Below, one piece after another: positions 6,995 to 25,345 of a stretch of 30,325 bases of DNA. The notes beneath the pieces were generated by a model. That model ran no database searches, had not been told where the DNA came from, and saw only the letters and a list, made by a program, of their open reading frames with translations. A program made the translations under genes and the position numbers. Source of the DNA: a virus. The DNA is taken from positions 1-30,325 of the IMG/VR virus record IMGVR_UViG_3300042866_000811; one strand, written 5' to 3'. Within the stretch, counting starts at the first letter, position 1. Every line of letters begins with the position of its first letter.

Positions 6995-8521
6995 CTATGA
7001 TCCTAGCCAAGAGGTTGAAATGCTGGCCTGACCATAAGCCTTGCGCGGCGTCCTGTCAACGCGCTCGCCTCTGGAGGCCACGGGGAACGCGAATGTAACG
7101 GCTATCGCGTCCGCGGCGTCGGGGCTTGCGAGCCCACGGGCTTTCATCTCCTTCTTGCCTTCGAGGAAGATCGTGCCCTTGCTGTCCGGCTTCATCAGCG
7201 GCGAGATCAGGTCCGTCTTCAGCACCCGGTCGGGTGGGATCGACGCGGTCTTCAGCCATTCCCGCATGGCTCCCCACATCTCGGCCCGCTTGTTGCCGTA
7301 CATGACCGGCTTGCTGCTCTTGGTCCCAAAGTTCACCCCCTTGACCTTGTACCGCTGCTCCTTGAGCCGGTCCACGACCCCTGCGCCCAGCCCGCCCTCA
7401 TCAATCACCACCATCGTCGGCTGGAACTCCTCCATCGCCTCGATGACGCGGCCGACTACCTCCATGGTGTCGTCACCGCGGTAGCGCTTGATTGCCACGA
7501 TGTCCCGGCCTTGCCGTACCGCAATAACTGTAGCGTCGGCACCGAAGCGTGCCGGGTCCACGCCGAGGACCACTGGAGCCGAGGCGTCCTTATGGCGGGG
7601 TCGCTCCATGGCGTCGTCGACGAGATGGATCGGGATGAACTGGTCATCTCCAGCCGAGGGAAACTCACCGTAGACCTCAACATGCGCCTGAACGCTGTCA
7701 GGCCCGTATTCGAGGATGATCTGCTCATAGACCGCCTTGTCCGTCCCTTCGACCGTGCGGGCGTCCACGGTCTTGTTGCGCCAGAAGTCCCGCTTGGCGT
7801 TGAACGCCTCGTAGAAGTAGCCCGTGTTGCGGCGGGGGTTGGAGAACGCCATCCAGAAGCGGTGCGGCGTGTTCTCGGTGAAGAAGCCCGCGGCCACCTG
7901 CCAGATGCTGTCGGAGATGCCCGAGGCTTCGTCGAACACCAGCAGCACACCATCAAAGTTGTGCACGCCCGCGTAGGCGTCCGGGTTCTCCTCCGACCAC
8001 AGCCGTCCCTCGACGCCCCAGTAGCGCGTGCCCTTCTTCAGGTCGCGCTCGACCAGCTCGGCCAGCCACTTGGCGGGCATGACGCGGGTAGCCGAGACCT
8101 CGAACCAGTGGCTGTTCAACGCGAGCGCCAGCCACTTGGTGATTTCGGCCCAGGTGATCGACCGGAGCTGCGTCTCGGAGTTGGCCGACACGATGGTGCT
8201 GGACCCGATCCGGGTCGTCAGCATCCAGATCACGAGCCACGAGACGAGGGCCGACTTGCCGATGCCGCGGCCGGAAGACACGGCCATGCGGAACACGTCG
8301 AAGTCGATCTTGCCGCCGTTGGAGCGGATGTGCTCGGCCAGATCGCGCAACACCTCGCGCTGCCACTTGCGCGGGCCCGCGAAGTGCTCCAGCGGCGTGC
8401 CGGGCTGCCCCCACGGGAACAGGTACATCACGAACTTGAGCGGGTCGTCCTTGAGCGACGGCGCCCACAGGGACGCCATCAGGCTCTGCTCGTCCTCAGC
8501 GCTGTAGCGCGTGGTCTGCAC
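6995..8521 (-). CDS. terL: Terminase large subunit (packaging ATPase/nuclease)
   Basis: A 508-residue motor that pumps DNA through the portal and cuts it. ATPase domain: Walker A SSGRGIGKSA at 82-91, Walker B LLVFDE at 193-198, and a coupling-motif-like region (FSNPRRNTG) at about 226-234. RNase H-like nuclease domain: D322 in GVDPARFGADAT, D374 in VVIDEGG, and the acidic pair in SPDAADAI at about 466-473, as expected for the three metal-binding acidic sites. The start is GTG: AGAGGAG lies seven bases upstream, and the gene then overlaps the small terminase by 26 bases. Length is normal for the family. Confidence 0.95.
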   Translation of the reverse strand: MQTTRYSAEDEQSLMASLWAPSLKDDPLKFVMYLFPWGQPGTPLEHFAGPRKWQREVLRDLAEHIRSNGGKIDFDVFRMAVSSGRGIGKSALVSWLVIWMLTTRIGSSTIVSANSETQLRSITWAEITKWLALALNSHWFEVSATRVMPAKWLAELVERDLKKGTRYWGVEGRLWSEENPDAYAGVHNFDGVLLVFDEASGISDSIWQVAAGFFTENTPHRFWMAFSNPRRNTGYFYEAFNAKRDFWRNKTVDARTVEGTDKAVYEQIILEYGPDSVQAHVEVYGEFPSAGDDQFIPIHLVDDAMERPRHKDASAPVVLGVDPARFGADATVIAVRQGRDIVAIKRYRGDDTMEVVGRVIEAMEEFQPTMVVIDEGGLGAGVVDRLKEQRYKVKGVNFGTKSSKPVMYGNKRAEMWGAMREWLKTASIPPDRVLKTDLISPLMKPDSKGTIFLEGKKEMKARGLASPDAADAIAVTFAFPVASRGERVDRTPRKAYGQASISTSWLGS

Positions 8522-8936
8522 GTGGCAGCTCCTCTGTCAGGTCCGTGGCGACGATGTCGATCACCCGACGCTGCGCCTCCTCCAACGCCGCCGTGATGCT
8601 GATCTTCTGCTCGATGCTGACCTCGACCGCCTGCTTGGCTACCCACCCGTGAGCGTAGCGCAGCATCTCGGTCGCCGCCTTGGCGTCGCCCGCCTCGGCA
8701 GCGGCGTACAGGGTGGTGGCCATGGCGCGCTCGCCGTCGGCGCGGCCCTTCTGTTCGGCGTACTCCGCGATGGGGTCCATCTGGCAGAGCTTGCGGTACT
8801 CGACCGGCGTCATGCCAGCGGCGAGTGCTAGGCTGTCGCCCTTGAGCCCCAGCTTGGCAGCCGCGTAGATCGCCTCCAGACGCGCCTCGGTGGCGGTCAG
8901 CGGACGCGGGTCATAAGGCAGCGACTGGAATGTCAT
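8496..8936 (-). CDS. terS: Terminase small subunit
   Basis: A 146-residue DNA-recognition subunit of the packaging machine. The N-terminal half has a helix-turn-helix-like stretch (AIYAAAKLGLKGDSLALAAGMTPVEYRKLCQMDP), followed by a long alanine-rich helical part (MATTLYAAAEAGDAKAATEMLRYAHGWV), which would form the oligomerisation core. It lies directly before terL and overlaps it. I use the ATG at 8936. The frame stays open for another 57 codons upstream, but that part is low-complexity (GEGGGRARRGCCCRG) and unlike the family. No clear Shine-Dalgarno precedes the ATG. Confidence 0.85.
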   Translation of the reverse strand: MTFQSLPYDPRPLTATEARLEAIYAAAKLGLKGDSLALAAGMTPVEYRKLCQMDPIAEYAEQKGRADGERAMATTLYAAAEAGDAKAATEMLRYAHGWVAKQAVEVSIEQKISITAALEEAQRRVIDIVATDLTEELPRADHALQR

Positions 8937-8971: not shown

Positions 8972-9302
8972 GCGTCAAGTATTTTGTTGTGAGCGGGGTG
9001 AAAAAATAAAAAAGTTTCTGCGGTCCTTGGCCACGGCAACAGCAGCCGCGCCTGGCCCTGCCCCCCCCCTCCCCTCTGAGCACTCGCAGCAAAATGCTGC
9101 AATGCAAACTGAATGAACGTTCAGTCAGTCGCCAGGCGCGGGTGGCGCTCGACTAGCTGCGGCAAGAGGGTGCGGGCGGCTGTGTGCTATGGCCCTTTTG
9201 CCCTACGCAAACCAGGCGGGAAATGCAACTAGATGGAATGGGCAAAAGGGGCAACGCCCGAAAAACTACCGGGTATAATAAAATCAATGAGTTAGCGCGG
9301 CG

Positions 9303-9329
9303 ATGGGCAAGATGGGCAAAATGGGCAAT
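9303..9329 (+). repeat. Three tandem 9-bp iterons (ATGGGCAAN)
   Basis: ATGGGCAAG, ATGGGCAAA and ATGGGCAAT follow each other with no gap. Further related copies are an isolated ATGGGCAAAA at 9238-9247 and a partial ATGGGA at 9328-9333. Repeats of this kind serve as binding arrays for an initiator, terminase or repressor. Confidence 0.75.
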
Positions 9330-9422
9330 GGGATTTTACATCGCCCCCCTGAATCGCTGCACTGCAACATAAAGACTTCCTTATGTAGTACAAATAAAAA
9401 TCCATAGCATAGTAAATTAAAG

Positions 9423-9440
9423 ATTACCCATATTACCCAT
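9423..9440 (-). repeat. Two tandem 9-bp iterons in opposite orientation
   Basis: ATTACCCAT occurs twice head to tail. On the minus strand it reads ATGGGTAAT twice, one base different from the ATGGGCAAT unit of the other cluster. The 93 bases between the clusters include a very AT-rich stretch (about 9366-9422) with a small ACATAA/TTATGT hairpin. Read as TTACCCATA, each unit matches seven of nine bases of the DnaA box TTATCCACA. Confidence 0.75.
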
Positions 9441-9523
9441 ACGCCGATGGCATAATGCTATCTCTGCATCGCGGCGCTGCCCATTGCAGCACCCAAACGC
9501 CACCCCACCAGCACCCCAAAACA

Positions 9524-9549
9524 AAACGGGCGGCAATTGCCGCCCGTTT
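9524..9549 (-). terminator. Intrinsic terminator, 26-bp perfect palindrome
   Basis: The arms AAACGGGCGGCAA and TTGCCGCCCGTTT are perfect complements. On the minus strand the hairpin runs into TTTTGTTTTGG, a usable U-tract. It lies 43 bases beyond the stop of the small minus-strand gene (9592-9732), so it most likely ends that transcript. Confidence 0.7.
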
Positions 9550-9554
9550 GCTTA

Positions 9555-9572
9555 CTACGCCATATGGCGTAG
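9555..9572. repeat. 18-bp perfect palindrome
   Basis: CTACGCCAT/ATGGCGTAG is a perfect inverted repeat between the stop of the small minus-strand gene and the terminator. It could be an RNA-stabilising hairpin or a protein-binding site. Confidence 0.6.
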
Positions 9573-9591
9573 CACGTCCTTCTATGCGGCG

Positions 9592-9732
9592 TCAATAGAC
9601 CCGTTTCAGCTTTTTGAACTCCACGGCGTAGCCATTATTGACATACAGTGGAATAATCTGAAAGCGATGCTGGTTGGCGCCAATCCAGTTAGCCATTGCG
9701 TGCGAGGTCTTGAAGCGCTTTGTGGTCCACAT
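9592..9732 (-). CDS. 46-residue basic protein, lone early-type gene
   Basis: The protein begins MWTTKRFKTSHAMANWIGAN and ends EFKKLKRVY; it is basic and aromatic. I do not recognise a family. It has all parts of a working gene: AGGA about eight to eleven bases before the ATG, a good minus-strand promoter (TTGACA, 18-base spacer, TATTGT) just upstream, and a strong terminator downstream. It is transcribed away from the early plus-strand operon and shares a control region with it, a position often used by phage regulators or host-takeover proteins. A regulatory role is inference. Confidence 0.65.
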   Translation of the reverse strand: MWTTKRFKTSHAMANWIGANQHRFQIIPLYVNNGYAVEFKKLKRVY

Positions 9733-9767: not shown

Positions 9768-9797
9768 ACAATAGCAGAAAAGAAAATGTGGTGTCAA
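9768..9797 (-). promoter_or_regulatory. Promoter for the small minus-strand gene
   Basis: TTGACA (complement of 9792-9797), an 18-base spacer and TATTGT (complement of 9768-9773, four of six consensus bases). The transcript would start about 30 bases before the ATG at 9732. Confidence 0.6.
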
Positions 9798-9810
9798 CAA
9801 ATATTTGTTG
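9795..9810. promoter_or_regulatory. Candidate operator between divergent promoters
   Basis: The 16-bp perfect palindrome CAACAAATATTTGTTG lies between, and touches, the -35 boxes of the two divergent promoters. A protein bound here could control both. Imperfect outer arms (TGTCAA at 9792, TTGACA at 9811) extend the symmetry. Confidence 0.55.
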
Positions 9811-9839
9811 TTGACATTGTGTGAGCAGTTCACTATTCT
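9811..9839 (+). promoter_or_regulatory. Sigma-70-type early promoter
   Basis: Perfect -35 TTGACA (9811-9816), 17-base spacer, -10 TATTCT (9834-9839, four of six). The start point near 9846 leaves a short leader with AAGGGA before the ATG at 9866. It would drive the plus-strand early genes. Confidence 0.75.
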
Positions 9840-10088: not shown

Positions 10089-10670
10089 ATGCTAATCGCT
10101 ACTGACATTCTCAAGGCCGCGCTGCTTTGTGCTTCGCAGGAAGAGAGCCGCTACTACCTTCGCGGCGTGCACCTGAGCACCACGGGGCACCTGGTGACCA
10201 CGGACGGGCACCGCATGTTCGTCGCCAAGCTGACTGAAGCCCCCGCGGCCGACGTCATCATCCCGCTTGATATGGTCAAGGCCGCGCTCAAGCTGGCGCC
10301 GAAGAAGGCCGCCACAATCGAGCTGAACGGCAACACACTCGGCGGCGTTGTGTTCACGCCCGTGGATGGCACGTTTCCCGATTGGCGCCGCGTCGTGCCG
10401 ACGGGCGAGGAACTGCCGTCCGGCAAGCCTGACGACGCGCCTGGCGCGGTTCATTTCAACCATGCCTTCATTGGTGACATGGCAAAGATGGCCGCCATCC
10501 TATGCGGCAAGGCCGATACAGCGCAATCCATGCTGCACCCTGTCAGCGCGAGCCATCCTTGCCTAGTCACGTTTGGTGACCGTGCCGATTGTTTCGCGGT
10601 TCTCATGCCATTGCGCCGCAAGATCAACCTCAGCGCGCCCCTCACGCGCAACGTCGTCATGGCAGGCTGA
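10089..10670 (+). CDS. Two-domain sliding-clamp-like protein (DnaN family)
   Basis: A 193-residue protein that probably tethers the phage polymerase to DNA. It shows DnaN landmarks in the right order: RYYLRGVHLSTTGHLVTTDGHRMF (21-44), matching the domain II signature YYLNG...LVATDGHRL; VDGTFPDWRRVVP (92-104), matching the (V/I)xGRFPDYRRVLP signature at the end of domain II; and CFAVLMPLR (168-176), resembling the YVVMPMRL C-terminus of the bacterial clamp. Domain I is absent, so the protein is about half the usual 366 residues, and domain III is short. A two-domain clamp would need three copies for a six-domain ring, as in PCNA; that is inference. The ribosome binding site is weak. Confidence 0.7.
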   Translation: MLIATDILKAALLCASQEESRYYLRGVHLSTTGHLVTTDGHRMFVAKLTEAPAADVIIPLDMVKAALKLAPKKAATIELNGNTLGGVVFTPVDGTFPDWRRVVPTGEELPSGKPDDAPGAVHFNHAFIGDMAKMAAILCGKADTAQSMLHPVSASHPCLVTFGDRADCFAVLMPLRRKINLSAPLTRNVVMAG

Positions 10671-11950: not shown

Positions 11951-12153
11951 CGCCAGACCGGGCGTATTGGGCGGGCCATTGCAGCGCGTTTGACGACGCG
12001 ACCCTGTTGCGCTTCCTTGTGGCCGTGGAGGCCAGCCGCAGCCGCTACGACGCGGCCCTTGAGGCTGCGCAAGCGGAGGCAGAGCGCCGCAATCTGGTAA
12101 AAGAAAAGGCCCCCGTCACCGGGGGCCAAGCAATAGGGAGGAAACAGCCTTGA
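11947..12153 (+). CDS. Hypothetical early protein, 68 residues
   Basis: A mainly helical protein (MTPDRAYWAGHCSAFDDATL, then a helix of charged and alanine residues). No family recognised. It starts on an ATGA overlap and its TGA overlaps the TTG start of the DnaA-like gene. The end of its coding region carries a perfect hairpin that looks like a terminator for the opposite strand. Confidence 0.65.
   Translation: MTPDRAYWAGHCSAFDDATLLRFLVAVEASRSRYDAALEAAQAEAERRNLVKEKAPVTGGQAIGRKQP
12098..12127 (-). terminator. Terminator facing antisense transcription
   Basis: Arms GGCCCCCG (12108-12115) and CGGGGGCC (12120-12127) with a 4-base loop. Only on the minus strand is the hairpin followed by a U-tract (TTTTCTTTTACC, complement of 12096-12107). 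It would stop minus-strand transcripts that run past the primase-helicase gene into the early genes. Confidence 0.6.
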
Positions 12154-12614
12154 CGTATCACGACGTGCCACTGGACGCAATAGAGATTGAACGGCGCCTG
12201 CGCGCCTACCTCGACGACCTGGTGCAGCTCGCGGGCGGCCCCGTGACGGTCTGGCGCGCGGCCCGCATGGCTATGGAGCACCTGCGGCGAGCGGCCAACG
12301 CGCCCGATAGCGAGCCCGTGACGCTGCCGACGACACATCCCGAGGCCATCGTGCAGGCCGTGGCGGCCGCGCATGGCCTCACGGTCGACGACCTGCGCGG
12401 CCCGGCGCGGACGCGGTATATCAGCACCGCGCGCCACCACGCGGCGTGGGAACTGCGCCTACGGCGGCCTGACCTGCCGCTGGACAAGATCGCGGCTTGG
12501 CTGAACCGGCGCGACCATGCAACGATGATCCACAGCTTGAAGACGTTCCGCAAACTGCGCGCAAGCGGCCAATACGACGAAGAGCGCGCCCTTGTGGAGC
12601 GCGCCCTGTCATGA
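12150..12614 (+). CDS. DnaA domain IV-like DNA-binding protein
   Basis: A 154-residue protein whose C-terminal half matches the DNA-binding domain of the replication initiator DnaA. IVQAVAAAHGLTVDDLRG (67-84) corresponds to the start of domain IV, ARTRYISTARHHAAWELR (86-103) to the basic loop and next helix, and RRDHATMIHSLKTF (120-133) to the recognition helix normally reading GRDHTTVLHA. One threonine that contacts the DnaA box is Ala here. The ATPase domains are missing; the first 60 residues are an unrelated helical part. It starts at TTG, with GGGAGGA upstream and an overlap with the preceding stop (TTGA). It may bind a phage origin or regulate its own operon. Confidence 0.8.
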   Translation: MTYHDVPLDAIEIERRLRAYLDDLVQLAGGPVTVWRAARMAMEHLRRAANAPDSEPVTLPTTHPEAIVQAVAAAHGLTVDDLRGPARTRYISTARHHAAWELRLRRPDLPLDKIAAWLNRRDHATMIHSLKTFRKLRASGQYDEERALVERALS

Positions 12615-12670
12615 TCATGCTGGTGGCCTTGGTGCTGGCGGCCCTTGTGGCCGCCTGGCTCGACCTCTAA
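12611..12670 (+). CDS. Possible 19-residue hydrophobic peptide
   Basis: MIMLVALVLAALVAAWLDL, a pure membrane-spanning sequence. The ATG overlaps the stop of the DnaA-like gene (ATGA). Its TAA overlaps, on the other strand, the TAG of the converging primase-helicase gene. The exact fit is suggestive, but a chance frame cannot be excluded at this length. Confidence 0.35.
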   Translation: MIMLVALVLAALVAAWLDL

Positions 12671-14973
12671 CCCTTCACCACTGTAAGCCCCGGACCTGCG
12701 GCGTGCTCGACCATGCGCCGCAGGTCGCTCTTTGAGTAGGTGCGCGTCATGTCCTCGCGCGCCCAGATGTTTTTCTTGGTCTGATACTCGGCCGACTTGA
12801 CGGCGCCGAGGTCGATCCAGCCCGCTTCCTTGAGACCATGCAACAGCGCTGCCTGGGGCACCTTGACGCCACCGGGCGCGCCCTGCTGGAGCTGGTTGCA
12901 GATCTTGTGGAATGGTGACGCAATGACGCCCGCGGCGAACTCGGGCGACGGCTTGTGCACCTGCTCGATGACGTAACTCTCCGCCATGCTGCGGCCCGTC
13001 TCGATGAGGCGCGTCCGGTAGTCCGTCCACGGCGGCATGGCCGCAGGATTGAACGCCGACACATCGCGGTCGAGCAGCCAACGGCCCACGGCCTGGAGCC
13101 CACCCTGCTTCTTGTACCACGCCCACAGCGCCACCGCGTCCGCCTTCTCCATGCGCGGCGCGTGCGACCACAGGCAGAACCAGCGCCGGTCCTGCGTCGG
13201 CAGCGACAGCGGCACGGGATCGTTGGTGAACGCCAGCACAAACAGGCGGTTGACCATGTCGTAAGGGTGCAGGCCCTTGCGCTCGATGGTCAGCGTATCG
13301 GGCGGCGCCGCGATGATCGGCTTGAGCTTGTTCGACAGCGAGCGGCGCTGGGCAGCCTCGGGCTCCTTCAGCTCGTTCAGGATCAGGATCTCGCTCTCTA
13401 AGGCATAGCCCCAGCGCGAGTTGATGCCGTCCGCGTCCACCAGCCCGCGGTTGCGCAGGTCGGGCCCGCACACGGACCAGATGAACGGGAACCAGAACGT
13501 ATCCTTGCCGCAGCCCTCGTCGCCGCCATGCAGCACGGCGTGATTGATCTTCACCTCCGGGTGCTGGAGCTTGTAGGCCATGACGTCGAAGACGTGCTCG
13601 CGCTCGACTTGGTCGGGGATCAGCAGCTCGGCATGGGCCAGCCACGGCGTGACGTCACCCGGCGCGACGCCGGACAGGTCCGGCCGCGCGTTGATCCAGC
13701 GGTTGCCGTAGACCTCGCTGTCCTTGGCGACTAGGACGCTCTCGCCCGCAGCGTAGGTCAGCCCGCGCAGCACACGCGCCCCCGCCCCTTGGCGGTTCTC
13801 GTCGTAACAGACGGACGCCTCGACCTTGCGTTGCGTGTGGATCGACTTGCAATCGACGTGTCTAAACACGGCGTTGAACGCGCCGCGCGTCATCTCCCGC
13901 CGGTCGATCATGTCGAAATAGGCGTCGTCCTCGACGATGTACGCGAAGCGGCTGAACCACTCGCGCTTGGTCAGGCGGCCCAGCTCCTTGCGGTCAACCT
14001 CGGCGATGACCTCGGCAGCCGCATCAGGGAACGCCTCGGTCGGCTGGATCGTCGCGGCCACCATGGCCATGCGCTCGGCCACCAGCTCCTCGCGGAAGCC
14101 CGCCTGCACCGTCGGCCCGCTCTGCTCGGCCACCCATGCAAGGAAGGCGTTGCTGTCGAGGTGCTCGCAGTGGGAGTGGTAGCAGCAGAACGCCCGGTTG
14201 ACGGGCGAGTAACGGCCCTCGATCTGGCCGTCCGTATGCGCGGCATGGTTCGGGCAGACGACGCCGCACCAGCCCTCGCGGTTGACCTGGGAGAGCACCA
14301 GCCCCTGCTCGGAGAGCCACTTGAGCACGCTGTCGGAGCCCGTGTCGCGCAGGCGGATCACCTGCGGCCCGGCACTGTCGGCGGGTGCTGGCGTGACGTC
14401 CAGCCCCTCGCAGATCTGCGCCAGCGTGTACTCGCGCTCAGGGTGGAACTCGACCAGCCGCGCGGGGAACAGGTCACGCCCCGGCTTGAGGTTGGGCGAG
14501 CCTGGCAGGCGGCAGTTGCGCACCGCGTTGGTGGCGCCGGGGTCCGTGTAGCCTGCGGCCGCAATGGCAGTGATGGCCGCGACGAACTCAGCCTTGGTCG
14601 GCTGCTCCTTGAAGGCGTAGCCCCACTGGCAGTTGCCGGGCGACGTCTCGACGATCCACGTCGGTGGCACGGGCGGCACCTTGGACTTGGTGCCGATGTC
14701 GTCCAGCATCATGAACAGGACGAACTCGCAGTTGGCCGCCGAAGCCGACGGCTTGCCGTCGAAACGATCGATGATGAACGAGCCCGTATTGATGAACCAG
14801 CTCTCGCCGTCCCTGCGCGCCCGTGACGGCAGGAAGGCGGGCCATGTGAACTTGAGGGTGCCGTCGCGGTGCGTGACTTGCTGCCCGTCATACATGACGG
14901 GCTTCTGGCGCACGATCAGGGCTGTTTCGCCGTCCGGCGCAAGGCCGGTTAGGTATTCTAGAAGGTCTGACAT
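12667..14973 (-). CDS. Primase-helicase (RepB-like primase, DUF5906-type ATPase)
   Basis: A 768-residue replication enzyme that probably lays primers and unwinds DNA. The N-terminal part (about 60-190) resembles the archaeo-eukaryotic/RepB primase fold: FVLFMMLDDIG (84-94), WIVETSPGNCQWGYAFKE (106-123) and NAVRNCRLPGSPNLKPG (149-165). A Cys/His cluster follows (WCGVVCPNH near 235-243, FCCYHSHCEH near 262-271) and may bind zinc. The C-terminal ATPase has Walker A GGDEGCGKDT (483-492), a Walker B-like ILILNE (529-534) and an arginine-rich QDRRWFCLW, the arrangement of DUF5906/SF3-like phage helicases. An AAGAGGAAAC site precedes the ATG. It is the last gene of the minus-strand replication operon. 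Confidence 0.85.
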   Translation of the reverse strand: MSDLLEYLTGLAPDGETALIVRQKPVMYDGQQVTHRDGTLKFTWPAFLPSRARRDGESWFINTGSFIIDRFDGKPSASAANCEFVLFMMLDDIGTKSKVPPVPPTWIVETSPGNCQWGYAFKEQPTKAEFVAAITAIAAAGYTDPGATNAVRNCRLPGSPNLKPGRDLFPARLVEFHPEREYTLAQICEGLDVTPAPADSAGPQVIRLRDTGSDSVLKWLSEQGLVLSQVNREGWCGVVCPNHAAHTDGQIEGRYSPVNRAFCCYHSHCEHLDSNAFLAWVAEQSGPTVQAGFREELVAERMAMVAATIQPTEAFPDAAAEVIAEVDRKELGRLTKREWFSRFAYIVEDDAYFDMIDRREMTRGAFNAVFRHVDCKSIHTQRKVEASVCYDENRQGAGARVLRGLTYAAGESVLVAKDSEVYGNRWINARPDLSGVAPGDVTPWLAHAELLIPDQVEREHVFDVMAYKLQHPEVKINHAVLHGGDEGCGKDTFWFPFIWSVCGPDLRNRGLVDADGINSRWGYALESEILILNELKEPEAAQRRSLSNKLKPIIAAPPDTLTIERKGLHPYDMVNRLFVLAFTNDPVPLSLPTQDRRWFCLWSHAPRMEKADAVALWAWYKKQGGLQAVGRWLLDRDVSAFNPAAMPPWTDYRTRLIETGRSMAESYVIEQVHKPSPEFAAGVIASPFHKICNQLQQGAPGGVKVPQAALLHGLKEAGWIDLGAVKSAEYQTKKNIWAREDMTRTYSKSDLRRMVEHAAGPGLTVVKG

Positions 14974-15353: not shown

Positions 15354-17330
15354 TCATGCCTTACCGTAACGAGCAAGCACTTTGCCGCTGGCACCCAAAG
15401 GAAGCCCTTCAGCCCAAGCGGGAGGGGTGACCATAACAGCCTGCATCGCGGCTGCCAATTCCGCTGATTTTTCTGTATCAACCTCGGCTACAATTTCGTC
15501 GTGCACGTGCAGCACGACCTCGACGCCCGCGGCGTCCAGACCGCGCAGCGCCTCGCGCAGGATGTCGTTGGCGGTGGCCTGCACGATGTTCTCGCAGGCA
15601 AGCCCGCGCCAGAGCCGCGCCCGTGGCCACTCCTTGGCATCCGCTGCGGGCTTCCACGACGCCTTGGCGTAGGACACGCCGTCCTCCTCGAACCGCGCGT
15701 AGGGGTAGCATAGCACGCGGCCCGACGGCAGCGCGTACCACAGATGATCGCCCTGCTTCATGTACTGGACGCGGCCCGCCTTGAACACCTCGCCGGGGTT
15801 GCGGATAGCGCGAGTGTACGCCTGCTCCAGATCGGCCCAGAACGGCACGGCCCACGGGTTGGCGCGGCGCCACAGATCGACCGTGCGCCTCGCCTCGCTC
15901 TCGGGCATGTGGACGCCGTAGACGCGGCCCATGGCGTTGAACGCCCCCACGCCGCCGCCGAACCCGCAGGCCAGCACGGCCACCTTGCCAAGCTGCCGCT
16001 GCTCGTCAGTGACGGCCGTCTCCTCGACGTTGAACATGCGCGAGGCAACGGCAACGTAGATGTCGCGGCCCTCGCGGAACACGTCCAGCGTCTCCTCGCC
16101 GTCCATCGACAGCCACGGCGTGACGCGGGCCTCGATCTGGGCATAGTCGAACACGGCGAAGACCTTGCCCTCGGCCGGGATCAACGCCGGACGCAGCATG
16201 GACTTCAGCACGTCGGTGACGCGCTTGCCGAACTCGGGCACGATCTGGTGCCCGCGCACGAGCGCCTGGCGGGCTAGTTCAGGCTCTTTGGCGCATTTTC
16301 GCGGGAAGTTGTGGACTTGGAGACCATAACTTGATGCGCGGCCCGTAGCGCTTCCCCCAGCAAACACAAACGCACCCCGGACGCGACTGTCGATATCATC
16401 TGAGAGCGATGCAGCTCGCTCAAACTTCGCCACCGACGATGCCCAGAGATCGTCCGCGCACTGCACCACCTCATGGACTTCCGGGGGTACTTCATCAGGG
16501 TTCTCCATCGCCAGCAGGTTGGACCGCACCGTCTTGTCGATGCTAGCCTTTTGTACGCCGTCCTTCCAGACCATCATCATGGCCCGCGCCTGCGGCCCGA
16601 CGCGCTCCAGCACCCACTCGCGCATCCGCGGGCTGCGCACGCTGGTGAGCCCCGTGATCTCGCGGAAGATCGTCTCGATCTCCTCCTGCTCGGCGGCGGC
16701 ATACTTGACGGCGGCCTGCGCCAGCGGGCGGTCGAGGCGCACGCCGCGGTCGTTGATGCGCTCGTTGACGTGGTAGTCGAGCAGCTCCTCGTCGGTCAGC
16801 CCGCGCATGGCCTTGGAGAAGGCCCGCATGGCGCGCACGTCCTGCTCGCAGTACTCGATCATCTCCTGCATCAGCCCGGCGTCCTCGCGGAACGTGCCGT
16901 TGGCCTGCGGGATGGACAGCGCGCGCACCAGCGCCGCACCGCGGTGATCCTTGCGCATCCCTGCGCCCGCGAAGCGGCCCACGTCCTCCAGGCTGCCCGG
17001 CGCGCAGTTGGCACGGGCCTGCGCCGCGGTGCAGTAGAACTGCGTCAGCGCAGGCTCGGGCACGCCGTGGTCGGGACAGATGACGTACCAGAAGATCAGC
17101 CGCTCGAAGGCGGCGTTGTGGGCGCGGATCTGTGCGCCAGAAAGAATTGCCGCCGAAACTTTCTGTGGAAAAGACTGGTCGAAGGTCCACGTCTGCACGT
17201 CCTCGCCGTCGAAGGCGTAGGACATGCAGAGCACTTGTGTGGAGATGTCTTGCGCGTAGTTGTACACGCCCCGGCTCGGCAGATCGCAGCGCGAGCGGGT
17301 CTCGAAGTCAAGCCAGAGGGTTGTCTTCAT
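15354..17330 (-). CDS. polA: Family A DNA polymerase with 3'-5' exonuclease
   Basis: A 658-residue replicative polymerase of the Pol I family. The exonuclease domain shows LDFETR (D8, E10), HNAAFE and EQDVRA (D164). The polymerase domain has motif A VFDYAQIEAR (D395), motif B R445-x3-K449 in QRQLGKVAVLACGFGGG, and motif C LHVHDEIV (H610, D611, E612). Aligning motif B with E. coli R754/K758 puts Leu at position 762 and Phe at 766. No 5' nuclease domain is present, as usual in phages. The ATG at 17330 follows GAGGT at eight bases and overlaps the PAPS-reductase-like gene by 23 bases. Nine more codons upstream are open but lack a site. Confidence 0.93.
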   Translation of the reverse strand: MKTTLWLDFETRSRCDLPSRGVYNYAQDISTQVLCMSYAFDGEDVQTWTFDQSFPQKVSAAILSGAQIRAHNAAFERLIFWYVICPDHGVPEPALTQFYCTAAQARANCAPGSLEDVGRFAGAGMRKDHRGAALVRALSIPQANGTFREDAGLMQEMIEYCEQDVRAMRAFSKAMRGLTDEELLDYHVNERINDRGVRLDRPLAQAAVKYAAAEQEEIETIFREITGLTSVRSPRMREWVLERVGPQARAMMMVWKDGVQKASIDKTVRSNLLAMENPDEVPPEVHEVVQCADDLWASSVAKFERAASLSDDIDSRVRGAFVFAGGSATGRASSYGLQVHNFPRKCAKEPELARQALVRGHQIVPEFGKRVTDVLKSMLRPALIPAEGKVFAVFDYAQIEARVTPWLSMDGEETLDVFREGRDIYVAVASRMFNVEETAVTDEQRQLGKVAVLACGFGGGVGAFNAMGRVYGVHMPESEARRTVDLWRRANPWAVPFWADLEQAYTRAIRNPGEVFKAGRVQYMKQGDHLWYALPSGRVLCYPYARFEEDGVSYAKASWKPAADAKEWPRARLWRGLACENIVQATANDILREALRGLDAAGVEVVLHVHDEIVAEVDTEKSAELAAAMQAVMVTPPAWAEGLPLGASGKVLARYGKA

Positions 17331-18225
17331 CGGAGAACACCTCGCAGCTTTCTTCACAACCGGCGCCTACATCAAAATCGGGGTCGAACACGGCAGCCTC
17401 ATCGTGTGCCGGAACAAACGTGTCTTTCTTGCGTTCATATTCCGCAAACAAATCCGCCACACTCATGTTGCCGCGGAAAAATGTGCGGTGGTAATCCGGC
17501 CCTATCGGGCGTTCACGGGTTGCAGGGTCTTTAAGAAACTCCGGGCCAACCTTGCCATATTGCGCCTCCATCTGGCGCGGAAAATCGTAGTGTTCCGGGT
17601 GTTCCGCAATGATGGTCAGGTGCTTGCGCAGCGACTTTTTCCAACACCACTTGCAGTTGCCCTGATAACCCTTGAGTTCAAGCCGAAATGGTTGCGCGGT
17701 CCACCAACTATTGATCTTGGGTTTGGTCATCGGGTGTTCTTTAAGAAGCGGGTAGATGATGCGGCGCTGCTGTGCGGCGGCCGACATCCGATCCGCCTCA
17801 TCGGCGCGGATACCAATGGCTAGGTCGTAAGATCCATTGGCCCAACCGACAGCCCGCGCGTATGCCTCAATGGGTTTCTGTTTCAGGTTGCGGGTGCAGT
17901 CTTTGAATTTCTGATTAGGAATGCCATACTTGCGGATTGCGTCTTCAAACGGTGCGCCGTTCCGCGCGGCGGTGTCAAAAGTCACAACTTTGTAGCCTGG
18001 CGAGCGGCGTTCGCCGTGGTACTGCACCGCTTCAATCCAGACCGTACCAAAACCAAAATGTTCGTCACAGCGCCGCACAAACTCTAATGTCTGCTCATTT
18101 TCTTGCCCGGTGTTTGCGAAGACAACCAGAATGTCGTCGTAACGATCCCGCCAGTTCTGAAGTATCCACCAAGTCATGTAGGCGGATGTTTCACCGCCCG
18201 AAAAGCTGATAAGCAGTCGGTTCAT
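17308..18225 (-). CDS. PAPS-reductase-like PP-loop protein
   Basis: A 305-residue member of the adenine nucleotide alpha-hydrolase superfamily. The PP-loop SFSGGETSA is at 7-15, followed by VVFANTGQENEQTLEFV (34-50), as in PAPS reductases, which sense ATP or sulfonucleotide. Cysteines C110 (KDCTRN), C191/C194 (GNCKWCWKK) and C290/C294 could hold an iron-sulfur cluster, as in the DNA phosphorothioation protein DndC. The substrate is unknown. Phage versions are often annotated as PAPS reductase but probably serve nucleotide, tRNA or DNA chemistry. It lies upstream of and overlaps PolA. The leader ACAAGAGGAAACGATG is nearly identical to that of the primase gene. Confidence 0.75.
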   Translation of the reverse strand: MNRLLISFSGGETSAYMTWWILQNWRDRYDDILVVFANTGQENEQTLEFVRRCDEHFGFGTVWIEAVQYHGERRSPGYKVVTFDTAARNGAPFEDAIRKYGIPNQKFKDCTRNLKQKPIEAYARAVGWANGSYDLAIGIRADEADRMSAAAQQRRIIYPLLKEHPMTKPKINSWWTAQPFRLELKGYQGNCKWCWKKSLRKHLTIIAEHPEHYDFPRQMEAQYGKVGPEFLKDPATRERPIGPDYHRTFFRGNMSVADLFAEYERKKDTFVPAHDEAAVFDPDFDVGAGCEESCEVFSDEDNPLA

Positions 18226-24919: not shown

Positions 24920-25112
24920 TCACACCTCGTGCGGCCCGTGCGCCAACGTACTTTGCAGTCAGTACGGCTGTCAGAGGCAGCGGAAAGTTATTGCTGACTA
25001 TCTGCACCCGCATTACTCAGCGGTGATCGTGCCACAAGGCTGCATCTGCCCGCCCACAAGTGAACAGACCTGTATGAACCCAAAATGCCCGAGGAGGTTG
25101 CCCCGCACATGA
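24906..25112 (+). CDS. Cysteine-rich small protein, probable zinc binder
   Basis: A 68-residue protein with eight cysteines in two groups of four: C9, C12, C17, C22 and C46, C48, C56, C61. The CPxC-like and CxC spacings suggest one or two zinc-binding knuckles. I do not recognise a family. The ATG has the same AGGAG site as the preceding gene. The stop overlaps the next ATG (ATGA). Confidence 0.6.
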   Translation: MAAIDHTSCGPCANVLCSQYGCQRQRKVIADYLHPHYSAVIVPQGCICPPTSEQTCMNPKCPRRLPRT

Positions 25113-25345
25113 GGCGTTTCCGTCGCATACCTATCCCCTGGCGCGCGCACCCGCTGGTGCGCCGTCTGTACGCGGAGATGAACCATCAGCAAATCGGCGT
25201 CACCGACATGGCCGAGCGGACGGGCATCTCAAGGCACACGTTCAAGGGCTGGCGAACGCGGCACTGCCCCCGCGTTGCGGAACTGGAGGCATGCTATAAC
25301 GTCCTTGGAATGAAACTGACCGTAAAGGTGGTGGAAGATGAATGA
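25109..25345 (+). CDS. Helix-turn-helix (XRE-like) protein
   Basis: A 78-residue basic protein. IGVTDMAERTGISRHTFKGWRTRHCPRVAELEACYNVLGMKL (about 30-71) fits an XRE/Cro-type helix-turn-helix, with the second helix at MAERTG and the recognition helix at SRHTFKGW. It is probably a transcription regulator of the phage. I chose the ATG at 25109 (ATGA overlap, GGAGG 11 bases upstream). An ATG at 25085 in the same frame lacks a site. Confidence 0.75.
   Translation: MRRFRRIPIPWRAHPLVRRLYAEMNHQQIGVTDMAERTGISRHTFKGWRTRHCPRVAELEACYNVLGMKLTVKVVEDE

Follow-up and report, generated by a model that had tools for sequence, protein, structure and literature searches.

Opposed 9-bp iterons in a family of P22-like freshwater phages: a probable replication origin and its candidate primase-helicase reader

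The opposed 9-bp repeats lying between the packaging and early genes of the viral sequence analyzed here very probably form an iteron replication origin, one that would be read by a self-initiating phage SF3 primase-helicase through its C-terminal winged helix; this reading draws on sequence comparison. The repeats cluster in the same architecture throughout a family of relatives, and their base sequence covaries with one short segment of the primase-helicase. Among the three functions that an earlier note on this DNA had offered for the repeats (replication origin, packaging start, and regulator array), the origin is well supported, with repeats present at the same locus in relatives.

The window is an entire IMG/VR record of 30,325 bases, and since its relatives measure 37-40 kb, it is probably a fragment. 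Its minus-strand arm carries terS, terL, and the portal gene; its right arm carries early genes together with those for a sliding-clamp-like fragment (PF02767), a DnaA-domain-IV protein (PF08299), the primase-helicase (12667-14973, minus strand), and a family A polymerase, PolA (15354-17357). The small terminase subunit gene terS (8496-8936, minus strand), which overlaps terL, was called by position, and its product had no family match in Pfam or PHROGs. The 193-aa sliding-clamp-like protein (10089-10670) matches DNA polymerase III beta in its central domain only (PF02767), and it also matches phrog_3007, which is annotated as RusA-like. Approximately 165 loci were collected by searches with TerL, the DnaA-like protein, and the primase-helicase. 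A complete 38.8-kb relative, MW202483, has a TerL 78.5% identical to that of the window and the same layout; it possesses coat, portal, and tail genes, with P22-like coat and portal among the annotations. The family consists of freshwater, P22-like phages; a scan of bacterial genomes for a host returned seven metagenome-bin contigs and nothing else.

The earlier note had described three repeat units facing two on the other strand, and these lie exactly where it placed them. Three head-to-tail iterons (ATGGGCAAN, with units ATGGGCAAG, ATGGGCAAA, and ATGGGCAAT) occupy 9303-9329 on the plus strand as the terS-side array, and a tandem pair of ATGGGTAAT occupies 9423-9440 on the minus strand. Further single copies and an inverted pair, claimed for 9191-9252, were both located: an outer single iteron, ATGGGCAAA, at 9238-9246 on the plus strand (8-bp ATGGGCAA at 9238-9245), and an inverted pair spanning 9194-9249, in which CCTTTTGCCC (9194-9203) faces GGGCAAAAGG (9240-9249). 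The very AT-rich stretch reported between the opposed units is also real, with 70-78% AT at 9360-9419 in a genome of about 60% GC; the tract as a whole (9360-9422, 70-78% AT) directly adjoins the tandem pair and is a candidate duplex-unwinding element. The placement of the region between packaging and early genes holds as well, with terS (minus strand) on one side and early genes on the other.

The clustering of the repeats exceeds chance. ATGGGYAA occurs nine times in 30 kb, against 1.55 expected, and six of the nine copies fall inside 9238-9440. The 485-bp interval 9108-9592 holds six exact copies; dinucleotide shuffles average 0.10, and none of 5,000 reached six. A motif-agnostic statistic was likewise reached in 0 of 300 shuffles. 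The tandem pair at 9423-9440 is the most conserved element of the window's clade, its ACCCATATTACCCAT core being found, with few errors, in 18 of the 18 genomes examined, but several clade members (L004-L008) have few exact copies left besides this core pair, which counts against the origin reading. The tandem pair is followed by a conserved block at 9441-9459 (ACGCCGATGGCATAATGCT), possibly a site of priming, which reads AGCCGATGGCATAAGGCTTT in a large part of the clade and has AGCC/GGCT arms. GC-skew extremes lay off the repeat site in the window and in two complete relatives, the measure being uninformative.

The intergenic regions of relatives, which the earlier note had named as a test, contain the repeats, in a sequence specific to each clade. 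Clustered 9-mers occur between terS and the early genes in most of the approximately 165 loci, and about 50 relatives have 5-17 copies of their clade's own 9-mer there, usually at a 9-bp pitch. The iteron sequences by clade include TTRCCCAT, TTGTCCACA, TGACCCAAA, TGACTCACA, and TTGCCAAT, and further clades have TGACCCACA, TAGCCTAAA, CTGCCGAA, GTTTACAT, and others. Across 51 representatives, 251 exact copies were counted in 51 kb of origin sequence, compared with 8 in the other 653 kb, for a roughly 400-fold difference in density, and the commonest spacing was that of same-strand neighbors exactly 9 bp apart (126 pairs). In 32 of 51 relatives the dominant strand flips across the AT maximum, and every one of the 51 measured has an AT-rich 50-mer (68-90% AT) within its arrays or next to them. 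The 9303-9329 array of the window sits on the side with the majority strand in the family pattern. Because clustering, 9-bp spacing, and the strand switch recur among the relatives, opposed iterons around AT-rich DNA are a family trait. These statistics leave out L083, L091, L099, L154, L166, and similar loci, whose best 9-mers are simple tandem arrays. Short G+C-rich tandem arrays were observed between or beside the iterons in L009 (approximately 1190-1280, GGCAGCCGGGCGATC repeats), L083, L091, L154, and L166.

The primase-helicase was scanned for iteron-tracking positions over all 768 residues, with no region chosen beforehand and about 60 relatives compared; per-column divergence was contrasted between different-iteron and same-iteron pairs matched by overall identity. 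The strongest 12-residue window was 722-733 (LGAVKSAEYQTK, encoded at 12775-12810 on the minus strand), with a score of 0.21, and the top columns included 726, 729, 731, 732, 725, and 722. This score was reached in 0 of 500 pair-label shuffles (maximum, 0.118) and 0 of 300 genome-label shuffles (maximum, 0.176), and the segment ranked first in six of six identity ranges. A second, weaker iteron-tracking region, residues 607-622 in the C-terminal part of the helicase, outranked it when the sequences were realigned and a wider range of identities was admitted (0.135, 0/300). When near pairs were drawn with each genome used once, those whose iterons differ diverged by 0.40 in segment 720-735 and by 0.148 in the remainder of the protein; for pairs sharing their iterons, the values were 0.125 and 0.085. 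L145 and L158, for example, are 97% identical overall, and they differ in their iterons and in 25% of the segment. In a tree that excludes the winged-helix domain and was built from residues 1-700, TTGTCCACA iterons and a KSR wing occur together in separate clades, beside relatives with other iterons and other wings. L024, for instance, combines the wing KSREFD with TTGTCCACA, and L048 combines the wing ASGDFQ with TGACCCAAA. CAC-type iterons went with Lys726 in six independent pairs, with none against and one tie (P = 0.031), a small test of a trait picked after the table had been seen, so that the P value is only supportive; Lys726 also accompanies non-CAC iterons in the window's clade.

The repeats and a single short loop of this protein change in step, and the primase-helicase is therefore named as the most likely reader of the iterons and residues 722-733 as the proposed specificity determinant. 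It is the covariation that points to an initiator encoded in cis whose specificity fits the iterons. Of the candidate readers put forward by the earlier note (a DnaA-like protein, primase, and TerS), only the primase-helicase is favored by this evidence. Two other replication genes put through the same scan gave 11/300 and 22/300, values read as weak linkage effects, and PolA gave no signal, with 189 of 300 shuffles scoring as high.

The same scan bears on the packaging-start option, under which the repeats would be a pac site read by TerS. The repeats do adjoin terS, and the relatives carry P22-like virion genes. However, shuffles scored as high as the real data in 56 of 300 cases for TerS and 170 of 300 for TerL, and because the divergence of neither protein follows that of the iterons, a packaging start is disfavored. 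The pac site of P22 lies inside the small terminase gene, which also counts against a pac reading of these repeats; we regard that reading as extremely improbable.

In the primase-helicase, a RepB_primase part (PF16793, E = 1.5e-5) and an SF3 DUF5906 helicase part (PF19263, E = 1.6e-9) are followed by the predicted C-terminal winged helix. The best solved relative of the helicase part is the C-terminal region (CTR) of NrS-1 phage polymerase (6k9c/6lrb, E = 5e-8), 6k9c having been identified as that polymerase through PMC7102993. The model of the whole protein was poor (pLDDT, 54.5), and the C-terminal domain (residues 662-757, encoded at 12703-12990 on the minus strand) was therefore modeled alone. 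From 57 natural sequences, AlphaFold2 predicted an order of H-E-H-H-E-wing-E with a core pLDDT of 84-92, a predicted winged helix in which the specificity segment corresponds to the hairpin between the last two strands, i.e., the wing. A Foldseek search of the PDB with this domain returned mostly winged-helix proteins in the first ranks, none of them significant (best E, 0.27), and a PDB sequence search with it gave no meaningful match.

The window also encodes a 154-aa protein consisting of DnaA domain IV only (12150-12614, plus strand; PF08299, E = 1.1e-12), and the iterons could in principle be variant DnaA boxes bound by it, or by host DnaA in the TTGTCCACA clades. Besides the presence of this domain, the repeats themselves lend some weight to that idea: TTACCCATA agrees with TTATCCACA at seven of nine positions and is DnaA-box-like, and TTGTCCACA, a typical DnaA box, is found in some relatives as many as 16 times when one mismatch is allowed. 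PF08299 is nevertheless missing from many of the records that have iterons, among them the long records L048 (37.1 kb), L077 (37.7 kb), and L032 (36.5 kb). Within the window's clade, the DnaA helix varies (RDHATMIHS, TDHTTAHHS, and TNHATALHS) while the iterons and the wing stay fixed. Near matches to the canonical DnaA box number four in the window, against 2.35 expected, and form no cluster, and the iterons of many relatives, such as GTTTACAT and CAATTTGAC, resemble no DnaA box. The DnaA-domain-IV protein had been the first hypothesis for the reader and was dropped on account of its absence from many relatives, its drifting helix, and the lack of a box cluster. It is probably not the reader, and DnaA boxes are a very unlikely explanation of the repeats. 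Stand-alone DnaA domain IV proteins without an AAA+ domain are common among the relatives (L011, L019, L056, L060, L089, L095, L102, L105, and others) and diverge quickly in the recognition helix; as a guess, they might compete with host DnaA. Clades without this gene have in its place, beside the primase, a gene for a conserved 63- to 71-aa protein (PLTYTEHYYIxLGYxxExG), a conceivable DNA binder, seen in L025 (6057-6260), L048 (6630-6845), L032, L035, and L047 (minus strand).

Signals flanking the repeats bear on the regulator-array option, under which they would be operators autoregulating the early or terminase genes. In two relatives from other clades, L025 and L048, a TTGACA-TACAAT promoter directly follows the last iterons, so the repeats could additionally allow the initiator to repress its own expression. 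In the window, by contrast, divergent sigma-70-like promoters (9797-9768 on the minus strand and 9811-9839 on the plus strand) have their own palindrome, CAACAAATATTTGTTG, between them at 9795-9810. Because these promoter-like sites (9768-9839) and the promoter-centered palindrome are about 330-400 bp away, an operator array is disfavored; the covariation of the iteron sequence with a replication protein also argues against it, and we judge it highly unlikely. The palindrome at 9795-9810 is itself a likely operator, possibly for a Cro/C1-like protein encoded at 25085-25345. An intrinsic-terminator-like hairpin on the minus strand (9524-9549) lies between the minus-strand gene and the origin, which this predicted terminator would shield from minus-strand transcription; Rfam matches at 9515-9597 scored far under the gathering thresholds. 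Read along the minus strand, this hairpin comes after a perfect 18-bp palindrome, CTAC-(10 bp)-GTAG, located at 9555-9572 and usually followed by CACGTC. A palindrome is present at the same place in L002, L004, L006-L009, L011, L012, L019, L020, L091, L093-L096, and L099; its inner 10 bp occur in at least eight versions among relatives, perfectly palindromic in all except L005 (0.89).

In the proposed mechanism, the primase-helicase would bind the iterons via its C-terminal winged helix, the wing (residues 722-733) being the part that reads the bases, and would assemble as rings on both opposed arrays. The assembled protein would then open the AT tract, unwind the DNA outward, and supply primers to PolA. 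We infer physical binding, ring assembly, melting, and a start of synthesis at the repeats, whereas the repeats themselves, their architecture across the family, and the covariation with the wing are shown by computation. A broader and more tentative interpretation, somewhat less probable than its converse, is that this P22-like freshwater phage family repeatedly switches origin specificity, the short wing and all iterons changing together according to a readable residue-to-base code. Examples of such residue-base correspondence are Lys726 with CAC, Ala with CAA, and Met with ACTA. The driver of switching would perhaps be the gain from not sharing origins with coinfecting relatives or satellites. 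Matched iterons and wings form a natural series, a ready-made set for studying how initiators recognize origins and how their specificity shifts, and the repeats offer a simple route to locating the origin in many contigs of uncultured phages that belong to this family.

Several known systems resemble the proposed origin in part. Bacterial oriC likewise has 9-bp sites beside an AT-rich unwinding region, and TTGTCCACA of some relatives is identical to the DnaA box; unlike in oriC, the iteron sequence varies by clade and covaries with the primase-helicase wing. In PICI satellites, origins consist of two iteron sets around an AT-rich region, and their describers stated that no other known bacterial replicon is so organized (PMC6092414); the SaPI Rep protein, an initiator helicase in some cases fused to primase, recognizes its iterons by a C-terminal domain (PMC7581432). 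The window's proposed origin shares the two iteron sets flanking AT-rich DNA, and its proposed initiator is a helicase with a C-terminal domain as the iteron reader. However, PICI/SaPI origins lie directly 3' of rep, whereas the origin here (9.2-9.44 kb) is about 3.2 kb from the 3' end of the primase-helicase gene at 12667, and the carrier is a tailed phage rather than a satellite, with terL and portal in the window and coat in relatives. Because of these virion genes and this distance, the element is not a PICI. The P4 alpha protein combines an SF3 helicase and a primase with a winged helix at its C terminus that binds the origin (PMC4234260), and the window's protein similarly has an SF3/D5-like helicase fused to a primase. 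The primase of P4 alpha is of the TOPRIM type, whereas that of the window matches RepB_primase, of the AEP type, and neither sequence nor fold comparison detected similarity between the P4 origin-binding domain and the window's C-terminal domain; because the primase type differs and homology is not detectable, the protein is not a P4 alpha protein. The PrimPol-helicase NrS-1 polymerase is the closest solved structure for the helicase part; a novel fold of its tail domain and only two genomic copies of its 8-nt recognition sequence have been reported (PMC7102993). The best reading is a mode of action like that of PICI/SaPI Rep and P4 alpha operating in P22-like phages, and, judged from the papers searched, carriage by P22-like phages, 9-bp head-to-tail iterons, and a matched series of iterons and wings are new.
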